From the NCBI RefSeq assembly GCF_900087055.1, contig NZ_LT575468.1, positions 2,359,773 to 2,423,772 of the forward strand: a stretch of DNA of 64,000 bases, given 5' to 3'. Position 1 is the first letter of the stretch; every line of letters begins with the position of its first letter. Made by a program: the position numbers and the translations under genes. This DNA comes from Plesiomonas shigelloides (GTDB lineage: Bacteria; Pseudomonadota; Gammaproteobacteria; Enterobacterales; CAMTGL01). Below are positions 23,637 through 50,543 of the stretch, piece after piece. The notes below the pieces were generated by a model. That model was not told the origin of the DNA, searched no databases, and was given only the letters and a program-made list of their open reading frames with translations.

Positions 23637-23934
23637 CAGTCGACTCCTTTCGACGAGGGATGGCAGAAAAAAAACCATCACGGAATACAGGAATAGAATA
23701 AGCAAACCACTAAATGCTGACCAAGTTCAAGACTTATAGCCAAATAGACAAGAAATCTAAAAAAGTTAGATGTAAAATAAAACTCAGATACGGAATTGAT
23801 AATTATCCTGAGAGTTAACGCATCATTTCATTTAAGTTATCAAAACATTCCGTTCACAATAAGCTGTGTCCTGCCATGCGCTGCATGATTTAACAGGCAT
23901 TATACATTTACTCTTCAGCCACAGAATTACCATC

Positions 23935-25620
23935 GTGAATATCGACGTATCAGCATTGCTCAATGGAAATGACATACTGCTTTTGTTTGTCGTACTGGCC
24001 CTCGGCCTGTGTCTTGGGAAATTACGCTTCGGCTCTATCCAATTGGGTAATTCAATCGGGGTTCTGGTCGTTTCGCTGCTGCTCGGCCAAATGCACTTCT
24101 CGCTTAATGCCGAAGCGCTGAGCCTTGGATTTATGCTGTTCATCTTCTGTGTCGGTATCGAAGCCGGCCCAAACTTTTTTGCCATATTTTTCCGCGATGG
24201 TAAGAACTACCTGCTGCTGGCACTGGTTGTGGTTGTCACTGCGCTGATCATTGCCTTTGCCCTTGGCCGCTGGTTAGGCTGGGATATCGGTCTAACCGCC
24301 GGTTTACTCGCCGGCTCCATGACCTCGACCCCAGTGTTGGTGGGGGCCAGAGAATCGCTCCTCAGTGGCTCGCACAATATCGCCGATCCGGCGCTGGTGC
24401 GCACCGCGCTGAGTAACCTCAGCCTCGGTTATGCCCTGACCTATTTGGTCGGTCTGGTCAGCCTTATTTTGGCGGCGCGCTATCTGCCAAAATTGCAACG
24501 TCAGGATCTGGTGACCAGTGCGCAAGAAATTGCCCGCGAACGTGGCCTTGACCCAGACAGTCAGCGCAAGGTGTATCTGCCGATTATCCGCGCCTATCGC
24601 GTGGGACCGGAGCTGGTCGAGTGGAGTGGCGGTAAGAACCTGCGTGAACTGGGGATTTATCGACAGACCGGCTGTTATATCGAGCGTATTCGTCGTAATG
24701 GCATCTTAGCCAGCCCCGATGGGGATGCGGTGCTGCAAGTTGGCGATGAGATTGCGCTGGTAGGTTACCCCGATAGCCATGCGCGCCTTGACCCGAGCTT
24801 TCGCGAAGGTAAAGAGGTGTTCGACCGTGACCTGCTCGACTTACGTGTTGTCACCGAAGAGATTGTGGTGAAAAACGACAGCGTGGTCGGCAAGCGTCTG
24901 GCGCATCTGCGTCTGACCGATCAGGGCTGCTTCTTGAACCGCATTGTCCGCTCGCAAATCGAAATGCCAATTGACGACACCATCGTCCTGAACAAAGGTG
25001 ATGTGCTGCATGTCAGCGGCGATGCCCGCCGTGTTCGCGGCTTGGCCGATCGGGTTGGCTTTATCTCCATCCACAGTCAAGTGGCGGACTTACTGGCGTT
25101 TTGTAGCTTCTTCATCATCGGTTTGATGGTGGGGCAAGTGACGTTCCAGTTTAGCCAGTTTACCTTCAGCTTTGGTAATGCCGCCGGTTTACTGTTCTCC
25201 GGCATCATGCTGGGCTTCTTGCGAGCGAACCACCCTACCTTCGGTTATGTACCGCAAGGGGCACTGACCATGACCAAAGAGTTTGGCTTGATGGTGTTTA
25301 TGGTGGGGGTTGGCCTGAGCGCCGGTAGCGGCATGAACAATGAAGTCGACAGCATCGGGTTACAGATGATTTTCGGTGGCTTACTGGTCAGTTTAGGCCC
25401 GGTCATTATTGCCTATCTGTTCGGTGCTTATGTGCTGAAAATGAACCGTGCGATGCTGTTCGGCGCCATTATGGGGGCCCGTACCTTGGCGCCAGCGATG
25501 GAAGTGATCAATACCCTGTCGCGCAGTAATATTCCGGCGCTCGGCTACGCCGGTACTTATGCGATAGCTAACGTGCTGTTGACGCTGGCCGGCTCCTTGA
25601 TCGTGGTGTTCTGGCACTGA
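23935..25620 (+). CDS. ybjL: putative transporter YbjL (AspT/YidE family)
   Basis: This inner-membrane protein has two AspT/YidE membrane halves flanking two TrkA-C (RCK_C) domains. The GTG at 23935 gives 561 residues, identical in length to E. coli YbjL, and the alignment begins [32 protein letters not shown] regions are visible at [24 protein letters not shown] and [23 protein letters not shown], with [20 protein letters not shown] between. The family is thought to carry anions or dicarboxylates, but YbjL's substrate is unknown. Upstream in-frame Met codons lie before the conserved start. Confidence 0.93.
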
Positions 25621-25739: not shown

Positions 25740-28004
25740 TTAGGCAGCGCGGTCTTCCGCACAAGCTGGATTTGGATGCGGACCATTCACATGGTCGACC
25801 TGCACCGCACGGCTACGCAATGCTTCGGCGGCCAACATCTGCTCAGCTTCCGCTTCGCTGATAATCGCACTGGCTTTGGCTTGCTCCACCAGCTCATTGA
25901 GCGCAACTTTACGTGGTAATTTACCGCTACGCTGCGCTTCTGCCAGCTTCAGTTCGATATCACGCGCGCCATACATCGCTAAGAACGCTGACTCCATGAT
26001 ATTAATGGCTTCATCCGGCGCTTGGCCGACAAAGCACAGATTAGTCAGGCGATCACGCTGCGCCCCTGGCACCATCATCAGCTTGGCAATTTTCAGAGCC
26101 GTTTCATCCTGAACCGGCTTGTAACTTACGCCGTACGGGAACACCGCCACCCGCAGCATGATCGCAACAGCGCGATTGCTGAAGTTTTGGAAGAAGCTAT
26201 CAAAGGCTTTGCCACACTGATACAAGCAGTATTGCAAACCATATTCAGCCAACGGCAGGTCTTCCTTCAAACGCCCTTCTTGCTCGTAGCGTTTCAGTAC
26301 CGCAGACGCCAGATACAGGTGGCTGAGGACATCCCCCAAACGCGCCGACAGCATCTCTTTACGCTTCAGATCGCCGCCCAACACCAACATAGCCATATCT
26401 GCGGTCAAGGCCAGCGCTCGGCTCATGCGTCCTAGCTGCTTGTAATAGCGGCTCAGTGGACTGCCCGATGGCGCGGCATTTAATTTACCTGCCGTAATGC
26501 CCTGCCAGAAAGTGCTGAAGAAGTTAGTCACACCAAAAACGATGTGCTTGAACAGCAACTCATCAAAGGCCTGCAAACCGGCTTTTTCATCAGGGTTGGC
26601 CGCCGCTTCCATCTCACCCAATACAAACGGATGACAACGGGTCGCACCTTGACCGAAGATCATCAGGTTACGGGTCAGGATGTTGGCCCCTTCCACCGTG
26701 ATGGCTACCGGAATACCAAAATAGTGGTGTCCCAGATAGTTCATTGGGCCTAACTGGATAGCGCGACCCGCATGGATATCCATGGAATCATTCAGCAGCT
26801 GACGACCAATTTCGGTCATGTGATACTTGGCAATTGCCGTCACAATCCCCGGGGTTTCACCGGTATCCAATGCCGTAGTGGTAAAGGTACGCGCCGCTTC
26901 CAGCAAATAGGTCAGACCGCCAATGCGTCCCATCGCCTCAGCCACCCCTTCAAAGCGACCAATCGACAGACCAAACTGCTTACGCACATATGAATACGCA
27001 CCAGTGGTACGGGTAGTTAGATGGCCAATCGCAGTGCCCAGCGCCGGTAACGAAATACCGCGCCCCGCCGAAAGGCATTCCACCAGCATGCGCCAGCCTT
27101 TACCGGCATAAGATGGGCCGCCGATAATCCAATCCAGCGGGATAAACACATCTTTACCCCATGTAGGCCCGTTCATGAAGGCCAGATCCATTGGAATATG
27201 ACGCGCGCCAACCTCGACACCTGGGTGATTGGTTGGGATCAGGGCACAAGTAATCCCGATGTCCTCTTTATCCCCCAACAGGTGCTCTGGGTCGTACATT
27301 TTGAACGCTAAGCCCAGTACCGTCGCCACCGGTGCCAACGTGATATACCGCTTGTTCCAGTTCAAGCGAATGCCCAGCACGTCTTTACCGTCATACGTGC
27401 CACGGCAAACAATGCCTTTATCCGGAATACTGCCCGCATCCGAGCCCGCTTCAGGGCCGGTCAGTGCAAAGCACGGGATCTCACGGCCATCAGCCAGCCC
27501 CGGTAACCAGCGCTGCTTTTGCTCCTCTGTGCCGTAATGCGACAGCAGTTCGCCAGGGCCTAATGAGTTTGGTACCATGACGGTCACCGCCGCAGTGGTA
27601 CTCTTGCTGGCGATTTTGGTCACAATGGTGGAGTTAGCCAAAGAGCTAAACTGACGGCCACCAAACTCTTTGGCGATGATCAGCGAGAAGAAACGCTCTT
27701 TTTTCAGGTATTCCCACACTTCTGGCGGCAGATCGTTTAACTCATGCACGATCTGATAGTCATCCAGCATGTTGAGCAGGGTTTCCACCTGATTATCCAG
27801 GAACGATTGCTCTTCGGCTGTCAGCTTGGGTTTTGGCAGCGCATGCAGTTTGTTCCAATCAGGCTGACCGCGAAACAGGTCCCCTTCCCACCAGACAGTA
27901 CCCGCCTCCATGGCTTCACGCTCTGTCGCAGACAACGGCGGCAGAATGCGCTTGAATACCTTAAAAGCCGGGCCTGAGATATAACGTTGGCGCAGACTGG
28001 TCAT
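25740..28004 (-). CDS. fadE: acyl-CoA dehydrogenase FadE (short, soluble-looking form)
   Basis: FadE catalyses the first oxidation of fatty acyl-CoA in beta-oxidation, using FAD. The product is about 754 residues; E. coli FadE is 814. It starts at the region corresponding to E. coli residue ~65 (GPAFKVFKRILPPLSATEREAMEAGTVWWEG), so the N-terminal membrane segments of E. coli FadE are absent. Core motifs are MVPNSLGPGELL, FALTGPEAGSDAG, RLNWNKRYITLAPVATVLGLAF and the C-terminal DUF1974 region. The ATG at 28004 has AAGGA 8 bases upstream and is preferred over 28013. It follows psrA by 35 bases on the same strand. Confidence 0.95.
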   Translation of the reverse strand: MTSLRQRYISGPAFKVFKRILPPLSATEREAMEAGTVWWEGDLFRGQPDWNKLHALPKPKLTAEEQSFLDNQVETLLNMLDDYQIVHELNDLPPEVWEYLKKERFFSLIIAKEFGGRQFSSLANSTIVTKIASKSTTAAVTVMVPNSLGPGELLSHYGTEEQKQRWLPGLADGREIPCFALTGPEAGSDAGSIPDKGIVCRGTYDGKDVLGIRLNWNKRYITLAPVATVLGLAFKMYDPEHLLGDKEDIGITCALIPTNHPGVEVGARHIPMDLAFMNGPTWGKDVFIPLDWIIGGPSYAGKGWRMLVECLSAGRGISLPALGTAIGHLTTRTTGAYSYVRKQFGLSIGRFEGVAEAMGRIGGLTYLLEAARTFTTTALDTGETPGIVTAIAKYHMTEIGRQLLNDSMDIHAGRAIQLGPMNYLGHHYFGIPVAITVEGANILTRNLMIFGQGATRCHPFVLGEMEAAANPDEKAGLQAFDELLFKHIVFGVTNFFSTFWQGITAGKLNAAPSGSPLSRYYKQLGRMSRALALTADMAMLVLGGDLKRKEMLSARLGDVLSHLYLASAVLKRYEQEGRLKEDLPLAEYGLQYCLYQCGKAFDSFFQNFSNRAVAIMLRVAVFPYGVSYKPVQDETALKIAKLMMVPGAQRDRLTNLCFVGQAPDEAINIMESAFLAMYGARDIELKLAEAQRSGKLPRKVALNELVEQAKASAIISEAEAEQMLAAEALRSRAVQVDHVNGPHPNPACAEDRAA

Positions 28005-28039
28005 TATGTTCATCCTTCATAATAGGGTTGGTAACTTCA

Positions 28040-28729
28040 TCATCCGCCGTTGGCGGCTGCGCTGACGGGTTGTAGTAATAATTCAGCGCTATGAATTGGA
28101 GCGGCAACGCCGCCAGCCAGATACGGAATGATCCGGTCAATCAGATCACTGATCTGGATATGCTGACCAAAATCGGCCAACGCTATCTCACGCAGAGCCA
28201 CATTGGAGGCCATGGCAAACACTGCCGTCCCCAGCGTGAAGTGCAAACGCCAAAATAATTCGGCGGTATTCAGTGTTGGATTCGCCCGCTGTACCGCTCG
28301 GGTGAATAACGCCAACACATCGCCATAGCGGGTGGTGATAAACCAACGCAAGTGCCCCTGCACATCGGTATATCCTCGCCCTAACAGCTGCATAAATAAG
28401 GTGGTGCCCTCTGGCCGTAAGGCGGTCAATTGCAACAGCGGCGCTTTAAAAGCCTGAAAGACCTGCTGCAAACTTGGGGTTTGATCGCTACGTAAGACCG
28501 CATCTAACTCCAGCTCCAAGGCCGGCATAAACACTTCCAGATACCGTGCCAGCACCGCACGAATCAGCTCTTTTTTCGAGCCAAAGTGATAATTGACGGA
28601 CGCCAGATTCACTTCAGCCTCTGCGGTAATAGTCCGCAGTGAGGTGTCATTAAAGCCCTGCTCGGCAAACAACCGCTCAGCGGCATCAAGAATTCGGGCT
28701 TTGGTATCGGGCCTGACGGTCATAGTCAT
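28040..28729 (-). CDS. psrA: TetR-family regulator, PsrA type
   Basis: This 229-residue regulator has an N-terminal TetR helix-turn-helix (ARILDAAERLFAEQGFNDTSL, then VNLASVNYHFGSKKELIRAVLARYL). Its C-terminal region carries LFMQLLGRGYTDVQGHLRWFI and ELFWRLHFTLGTAVFAMASN. This pattern matches PsrA, a fatty-acid-responsive repressor of beta-oxidation genes known from Pseudomonas and Vibrio/Shewanella relatives. E. coli lacks PsrA and uses FadR. It heads a two-gene unit with fadE. Two near-identical inverted repeats upstream suggest autoregulation. Confidence 0.85.
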   Translation of the reverse strand: MTMTVRPDTKARILDAAERLFAEQGFNDTSLRTITAEAEVNLASVNYHFGSKKELIRAVLARYLEVFMPALELELDAVLRSDQTPSLQQVFQAFKAPLLQLTALRPEGTTLFMQLLGRGYTDVQGHLRWFITTRYGDVLALFTRAVQRANPTLNTAELFWRLHFTLGTAVFAMASNVALREIALADFGQHIQISDLIDRIIPYLAGGVAAPIHSAELLLQPVSAAANGG

Positions 28730-28974: not shown

Positions 28975-29007
28975 GGAAGGAAGGAAGGAAGGAAGGAAGG
29001 AAGGAAG
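28975..29007. repeat. tetranucleotide repeat (AAGG)7
   Basis: Seven perfect AAGG units (28977-29004) with GG before and AAG after, in noncoding DNA between psrA and rybB. This is a second simple sequence repeat in the window, likely unstable in length. Confidence 0.95.
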
Positions 29008-29132
29008 ACGCAACATTGTAATGACACCGCACGACAAGCTCGCTACCACCACACCGGAACCGCCGGCCCCAAACCCGCACTAAAGAAACTGAAGAAAAAG
29101 ACGAAAAAAATGAGATTTTTTGATGCTGACGT

Positions 29133-29160
29133 GAAACTTCCGATGCAAAGCAGAGTCTGA
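29133..29160 (+). promoter_or_regulatory. sigma-E promoter of rybB
   Basis: GAAACTT at 29133-29139 and TCTGA at 29156-29160 match the sigma-E -35 (GGAACTT) and -10 (TCnGA) elements with a 16-base spacer. The -10 is 6 bases before the predicted 5' end of RybB (29167). RybB is a sigma-E regulon member in E. coli, which agrees. Confidence 0.85.
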
Positions 29161-29166
29161 GTATAT

Positions 29167-29252
29167 GCCACTGCTTTTTCTTTGATGTCCCCTGAGTTTA
29201 GAGGATAACCCGGTAACGTAATCTTTGGTTCCCAGTTACCGGGCGTTTTTCT
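29167..29252 (+). ncRNA. rybB: RybB small RNA
   Basis: The RNA starts GCCACTGCTTTTT and continues CTTTGATGTCCCC, which is the 5' seed region of E. coli RybB almost base for base (one extra T). A hairpin follows (CCCCT/AGAGG-like), then a terminator hairpin whose 9-bp stem CCCGGTAAC (29209-29217) pairs with GTTACCGGG (29235-29243) and runs into T5. The length is ~84 nt; E. coli RybB is 79. RybB binds Hfq and represses outer-membrane protein mRNAs when sigma-E is active. The 3' half differs from E. coli, so only seed and layout are conserved. In E. coli rybB also lies beside ybjL and a TetR gene. Confidence 0.88.
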
Positions 29253-29408
29253 TCCTACTGTTCATCCGTTAACTTTTCCCTCGCTTTTCATCCCTATCAG
29301 TTTGATTCTGTTTGTATTGCTTTTGGCTGCACTATTTTAGGTACATGTAATGTTTAGGTACACGTAATGCCAGTCGAGTCGCTGTACCGAATATGCACGG
29401 CCATCGCG

Positions 29409-29903
29409 TTAGCCAATCTCACCCTCTTCGGCATAAATCACATCCGTTAAGACACCCGCACCATTGCCGGCTTGATGCCAGTTAGGCAGCGTGATCCGAA
29501 TTTGCATCGCGGTGGTGAACTTAATTAGCTCATTATCGGTCAGATGCAAGACCAGATCGGCTAAACCGGGGTTATGGCCTACCAACACCAACTGTTGCAC
29601 CGAGTCAGGCGTGGCCGTGATCAGCTTTAACAGTTGCGGCAATGTGGCTTCATATAACTCAGGCGCGAGCCGTAATCTGGCTTGCAAAGCCGGTTTGCCT
29701 TCTAGCATCAAAGACGCGGTTTGCATCGTCCGTACACTGGGGGAGCAAAGTAACAACGCATCCTCATGAATAAAGGCTTGGCGCTGCGCCATCAATGTGG
29801 CTTGGCGTAATCCACGTTTAGCCAGTGGCCGTTGATAATCGGATGCCATATGATGCCGCCATGAAGATTTGGCATGGCGGACGAGTACTAATTCACACGT
29901 CAT
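29409..29903 (-). CDS. histidine phosphatase family protein, SixA-like
   Basis: This 164-residue protein is a small histidine phosphatase: the catalytic RHG-type motif is RHAKSSW (Arg9-His10). The second arginine is in the CSPSVRTMQTA segment and the second histidine in VGHNPGLADL near residue 108. It is the length of SixA, which in E. coli removes phosphate from the His of ArcB or PtsN-pathway proteins, but the RHAKSSW subgroup is distinct and its substrate is unknown. It is a single gene on the minus strand, convergent with rybB. Confidence 0.83.
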   Translation of the reverse strand: MTCELVLVRHAKSSWRHHMASDYQRPLAKRGLRQATLMAQRQAFIHEDALLLCSPSVRTMQTASLMLEGKPALQARLRLAPELYEATLPQLLKLITATPDSVQQLVLVGHNPGLADLVLHLTDNELIKFTTAMQIRITLPNWHQAGNGAGVLTDVIYAEEGEIG

Positions 29904-50134: not shown

Positions 50135-50258
50135 TTATGTCCGTTCATGATATCTACCGATTTATCAGAGAGTGTGGCCCCTAGGCCATGCTCCCGGCAG
50201 CAAGCGAAGGTGTCATTGGCACCCGTGGCACGTCATCTGGCCTGCCACGTCAATTTTT
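50135..50258 (+). ncRNA. candidate orphan small RNA between feoA and mepM
   Basis: The ~124-base segment contains TGGCC-CCTA-GGCCA, then GGTG-TCATTGG-CACC, then a strong hairpin. In that hairpin CGTGGCA (50224-50230) pairs with TGCCACG (50243-50249), and TCAATTTTTTT follows, a good rho-independent terminator not attached to any plus-strand gene. A promoter-like pair lies just upstream. No known RNA family is recognised. This is a prediction from structure. Confidence 0.4.
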
Positions 50259-50543
50259 TTACCTCCTCTCTTTTACCGCCTCGCTCTCCGTGACAAGACT
50301 GTTTTCTCTTTCCTCTCTTTTGGTTGGGCCTAGCCACAGCAATTCACACTCTGATTCTAGGCATTTAAGGCTGGGCAGACTCTCACCCTGGGGTATTCCG
50401 ACACTTATCCCCACTGAACATCTGTTATCCGCCGCAACTTACTAACATTGATCGTGTATTGGTCGCGCCATGCCGGTTTACGGCTCTCGCATAACCCGCT
50501 CGCCTAGCAAGCACAGATAAAACATGGGATAGAACGCGCAGAT

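Follow-up and report, generated by a model that had tools for sequence, protein, structure and literature searches.

A putative sigma-E-type RybB sRNA of Plesiomonas shigelloides, probably at an ancestral locus shared with Vibrio VrrA

The window analysed here, a stretch of 64,000 nucleotides of the Plesiomonas shigelloides genome, carries a predicted small RNA gene in the order ybjL (forward), fadE and psrA (both reverse), the sRNA (forward) and a sixA-like gene (reverse). Numbered from the first letter of the window, the features of the locus are:

23866-25620, plus strand: ybjL antiporter gene (NF003440, 1054 bits), upstream of the sRNA on the same strand, as in enterobacteria and Vibrio
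25740-28013, minus strand: fadE-type acyl-CoA dehydrogenase gene (NF009586, 1247 bits), adjoining psrA
28040-28729, minus strand: psrA, a TetR family repressor gene (NCBIfam NF053516, 347.9 bits, cut-off 300), divergent from the sRNA and marking the VrrA locus
29133-29139, plus strand: -35 element GAAACTT, read in the sequence, a form also present in the relatives of family f10
29156-29160, plus strand: -10 element TCTGA, separated from AACTT by a 16-nt spacer and from G29167 by 6 nt
29167-29252, plus strand: RybB-type sRNA of about 86 nt (Rfam RF00110, 42.0 bits), its 5′ end (G29167) and 3′ end both predicted
29168-29184, plus strand: 5′ seed CCACTGCTTTTTCTTTG with a T5 (Vibrio-type) run, predicted to form an unbroken 17-pair duplex with the leader of the porin gene L131
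29209-29253, plus strand: terminator, a GC-rich hairpin with the stem CCCGGTAAC/GTTACCGGG (29209-29217 with 29235-29243) and a T-run
29409-29903, minus strand: SixA-like histidine phosphatase gene (PF00300 over its cut-off, TIGR00249 below its cut-off), convergent with the sRNA

The initial annotation had read this RNA as a RybB homologue with a conserved 5′ end and had suggested a covariance search with the Rfam RybB model, and this search bore the reading out: RF00110 matched at 29170-29253 (+) with 42.0 bits, a narrow margin over the gathering cut-off of 40, with E = 5e-5 for 64 kb and 4227 families, and as the only match in the 3.4 Mb single-contig genome, so that the score, the E-value and the uniqueness together place it above chance and background. 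The RNA starts with GCCACTGCTTTTTCTTTGATGTCCCC and runs from G29167 as CCACTGCTTTTTCTTTGATGTCCCC, and its 26-nt 5′ pairing end is that of enterobacterial RybB save one inserted T, as had been recognized for E. coli from the letters. The body and terminator had been called unlike E. coli RybB, which was overstated, since the alignment spans the full model (1-79) and takes in GAUGUCCCC and the GAGGA stretch ahead of the terminator, although the terminator stem has diverged from the enterobacterial one. The whole RNA folds at -21.6 kcal/mol, and its T-run TTTTTCTT is interrupted and short for an Hfq-binding tail; the RNA is presumed to depend on Hfq. When 691 bases around the sRNA were compared at the DNA level with E. 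coli genomes, no match appeared, a scan of genome contigs for the exact long seed gave none either, and no RybB match was found in the second genome of the genus, which is 75% complete, the family consisting of one genus with two genomes.

The RNA is preceded by what appears to be a sigma-E promoter of its own, as the initial annotation had it, and the spacing across 29133-29160 is identical to that of enterobacterial rybB. With a matrix built from 47 relatives, a training set that was itself chosen by a pattern, position 29167 is the top-ranked one of the window, counting both strands (8.7, the next 5.9), yet it is weaker than even the poorest training promoter (13.9). When the two core elements alone were scored, the site reached 18.8 versus at best 16.9 in 40 shuffles of the psrA-sRNA gap. 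RpoE is encoded in the genome (TIGR02939, 324.5 bits), and transcription under sigma-E control may be expected. Within the 438 bases that separate psrA from the sRNA there is also a run of about eight GGAAG/GGAA repeats (28975-29008), a run whose length could differ between strains.

Among the 394 genomes of the order, RybB was matched in this genome and in 29 genomes of f18, the family that carries the enterobacterial ybjL-rybB arrangement; matches under the cut-off occurred in Aliivibrio and in one unrelated partial case, and weak matches in G227 (second site) and G318, lacking seed and promoter, were dropped. The T5 seed CCACTGCTTTTTCTT was found in none of the 29 RybB-bearing f18 genomes and in 30 of the 33 f21 genomes (Vibrionaceae; counted by hand from the table), mostly in MicV-type sRNAs, and therefore the extra T represents the Vibrio form of the seed. 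Of the Vibrio instances inspected, most show a sigma-E promoter with an RNA starting at the seed, the three with identified flanks lie beside argH, and these sRNAs fit the description of MicV (PMC7602753), an identification made from the published account that MicV and VrrA share a seed and not from a match to the MicV sequence. The MicV-type loci resemble the window sRNA in the sigma-E promoter and the 5′-terminal T5 seed, whereas they differ in the body and lie beside argH, not psrA. Such sRNAs were seen in Vibrio at L060, L063, L065-L067, L069, L070 and L073-L076, in a place separate from that of VrrA (the checked ones beside argH), and these loci are possibly a duplicate of the ancestral gene. 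No sigma-E promoter accompanies the T5 15-mer matches L062, L064, L068, L071 and L072 or those in other families, all of which were set aside.

The target prediction covered eight outer-membrane leaders of the genome and 49 control leaders from the window, with gene starts predicted. The best of the eight, and picked among them, was the leader of the porin gene L131 (G000:C1:2268.7 kb, outside the window), whose segment CAAAGAAAAGGCAGTGG, spanning -27 to -11 relative to the start codon, is predicted to pair with sRNA bases 2-18 through 17 contiguous pairs, one of them G-U, at -27.7 kcal/mol. None of the 49 control leaders reached this energy (best -21.7), while shuffling reached it 4 times in 2000 for the leader and 10 times in 2000 for the seed; the comparison of the seed with local porin leaders, proposed at the outset, thus puts the predicted L131 pairing above the controls. 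The best-pairing stretch of the sRNA is its 5′ end. The unbroken run of 17 pairs is due to the T5 run in the seed, and the same leader gave -23.3 with the natural T4 seed of enterobacterial RybB and -23.5 with a Vibrio MicV-type seed. The L135 leader paired more weakly, over 12 bases at the ribosome-binding region at -19.5 (reached by 184 of 2000 shuffles). Unlike the targets of RybB and VrrA described in the literature, the two OmpA leaders of this genome paired no better than the control leaders and were dropped as targets. L131 is presented as the best candidate target, and the one extra seed base matched by its leader offers a ready test of sRNA-target co-evolution.

The window locus resembles the Escherichia and Salmonella RybB locus in the whole-length RF00110 match, the promoter spacing, the 5′ seed GCCACTGCTTTT..CTTTGATGTCCCC and the upstream ybjL on the same strand, and ybjL with its upstream neighbours is colinear with enterobacteria. 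It differs in the seed (T5 versus T4), in the diverged terminator, in having psrA-fadE between ybjL and the sRNA, and in having no rcdA-type TetR gene downstream. The sRNA had been placed between ybjL and rimO, beside a TetR gene of the PsrA type, in a setting thought to mirror E. coli. Both ybjL and rimO are indeed present and the TetR gene is indeed a psrA, but it is not the TetR gene of E. coli: the enterobacterial order is ybjL and rybB (both forward) followed by TetR (reverse), so that the two TetR genes lie on opposite sides of the sRNA, and the enterobacterial protein, which is not called PsrA, is like PsrA in the DNA-binding region only. The mirrored TetR gene thus does not hold; towards psrA the neighbourhood corresponds to the Vibrio VrrA locus, and towards ybjL to that of E. 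coli.

In V. cholerae, mapping placed vrrA between the genes vc1741 and vc1743, and its requirement for sigma-E was shown (PMC2628432); the divergent psrA-fadE of the window and of the VrrA-matching Vibrio loci is placed like the TetR gene vc1741, putatively psrA, beside vrrA. Rfam calls VrrA at 11 of the 15 Vibrio psrA loci tested, including those in the genomes of L143 and L145 (L077, L080). In L143 and L145 a forward ybjL is followed by reverse fabV, fadE and psrA and then the sRNA, FabV being confirmed in L143 and otherwise read as a FabV-sized gene, and L147 has the same order of ybjL, FabV-sized gene, fadE and psrA with two further genes between ybjL and fabV. Photobacterium jeanii (L037) has reverse fadE and psrA and a divergent sRNA with a T5 seed, starting GCCACTGCTTTTTCTT; Aliivibrio has ybjL (forward), fabV (reverse), the sRNA (forward) and nhaA (reverse), and psrA was not found. 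The window and VrrA loci are therefore alike in an sRNA with a sigma-E promoter, divergent from psrA-fadE and with ybjL beyond, and CTGCTTTTTCTT is common to the window RNA and part of the Vibrio genus. The RNAs themselves differ: VrrA has about 140 nt and an internal seed, whereas the window RNA has about 86 nt, carries its seed at the 5′ end and gave no match to the VrrA model (RF01456), RybB being the sole Rfam family listed up to E = 1. Among 29 psrA-divergent Vibrio loci, 13 have a motif like CTGCTTTTTCTTATTAACTCC near the end of VrrA, and 11 have CTGCATTTTCC or CTGCAATTTCC in place of CTGCTTTTT. Because the VrrA seed is internal and 11 of the 29 loci bear a variant, it is position, promoter and a short motif that carry the case for common descent.

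The layout was also searched across the 394 genomes of the order with the pattern AACYT-N15..17-TCnnA-N5..7-nCCACTGC. Beyond enterobacteria, repeated matches occurred in genus g25 of family f25 and genus g10 of family f10, and all of the examined instances lie beside and divergent from fadE, with psrA detected in all but L202, this synteny having been read mainly in pattern-matching genomes. The RNAs there are predicted at about 60 nt, begin GCCACTGCAATTAA..., end in a terminator of the GCCCAGC/GCTGGGC type, and matched no Rfam family up to E = 1, bar one 21-bit match far under its cut-off. A psrA-divergent, putatively sigma-E-type sRNA beginning GCCACTGC thus appears to be present in Photobacterium and in f10 and f25 as well; psrA-divergent candidates of the latter two families include L195 5106, L196 4942, L200 5123, L206 5062 and similar ones, and other psrA loci of f10 and f25 (L108, L109) showed no clear sRNA. 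Alignment A1 is invariant in the core of the promoter (AAC, TC), at T40, throughout CCACTGC and at a small number of positions in seed and terminator, the remainder being variable, and CCACTGC is followed by T4, T5 or AATTAA. The early proposal that selection acts on the seed and the layout only is thus broadly supported across the order by this alignment, although the seed itself varies.

Several other matches were noted. A second layout match in the Plesiomonas genome (L174), with no T-run or terminator after it, is apparently a chance one. Five f27 genomes (L190 5179, L191-L194) have a sigma-E-like promoter and a short GCCACTGC(A/T)TT RNA with a terminator, not beside psrA. In f20, f15 and f7, sigma-E-like sites upstream of psrA were not clearly above shuffles, and the claim for these families is therefore withheld; upstream of psrA at L107, L110 and L111 (f20, f15), sigma-E-like sites precede CTCTCCCTGG or CTCCCCTGG and then a terminator, a common motif that may mark another psrA-divergent RNA.

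Based on these findings, we propose that the window sRNA is probably the RybB of this genome, a sigma-E-made porin repressor at an ancestral locus shared with VrrA. Upon envelope stress, sigma-E would activate the sRNA of about 86 nt from its own promoter, and its single-stranded 5′ end would base-pair with the mRNAs of outer-membrane porins, on or close to the ribosome-binding site, and shut down their translation, as 5′-end pairing of RybB with porin leaders does in E. coli and Salmonella (PMC7602753). The gene would stand at the sigma-E sRNA site of the common ancestor, downstream of ybjL and pointing away from psrA-fadE; Vibrio VrrA would have arisen from this same locus, with about 95 nt ahead of its seed, and enterobacterial RybB after the loss of psrA-fadE. 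The neighbourhood and the seed look as if they tie RybB and VrrA to one ancestral locus, and the best reading is that the two are positional orthologues, the window gene being the counterpart of both rybB and vrrA.

We regard it as unlikely that RybB and VrrA/MicV are unrelated by descent, namely that sigma-E sRNAs arose independently and converged on a porin-pairing seed. VrrA has been described as not homologous to RybB (PMC2628432), and a later review treats MicV and VrrA as functional homologues of RybB (PMC7602753); the seed alone is short and strongly selected for porin pairing, MicV-type loci bear it in an unrelated place, and bodies and terminators differ. However, convergence leaves unexplained why the window, Photobacterium, Vibrio, f10 and f25 all have the sRNA divergent from psrA-fadE, why ybjL lies beyond these genes in both the window and Vibrio, and why the promoter-to-seed spacing is exact. 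That a transferred enterobacterial rybB landed beside psrA is very improbable: the body does fit the RybB model better than any other family, but the T5 seed is absent from the 29 RybB-bearing enterobacterial genomes, the terminator stem has diverged, psrA-divergent sRNAs occupy the same place in other families, and ybjL with its upstream neighbours keeps the enterobacterial order. A decayed and silent RybB relic, to which the promoter score under all relatives and the interrupted T-run would point, is hardly to be expected with promoter spacing, seed and terminator intact and a T5 seed that fits, through 17 pairs, the leader of one of the genome's own porins.

Extending the proposal of one ancestral RybB/VrrA locus, we think it likely that both are end states of a single order-wide sigma-E sRNA gene, ancestrally psrA-fadE-divergent. 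In at least two further families this gene would persist in that place, as an RNA of about 60 nt not described before; nothing but the promoter layout and the 5′ CCACTGC would have been conserved in the gene, with its length, body and terminator exchanged, and T4/T5-type seed changes would follow changes in porin leaders. The literature searched, the main paper on the shared MicV/VrrA seed lying outside that search, held no statement of a shared RybB/VrrA locus, and enterobacterial and vibrio envelope-stress sRNAs are treated as separate families, with two Rfam entries and no clan. A genome keeping both neighbourhoods makes their common origin testable, would be a case of an sRNA that retained promoter and seed tip with nearly all else changed, and points to unannotated sigma-E sRNAs in other families.

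Elsewhere in the window, Rfam matched TfoR, the translational regulator of Vibrio tfoX, at 50162-50259 (+) (RF02100, 76 bits, cut-off 70), and a histidine operon leader at 164-298 (RF00514, 72.1 bits).
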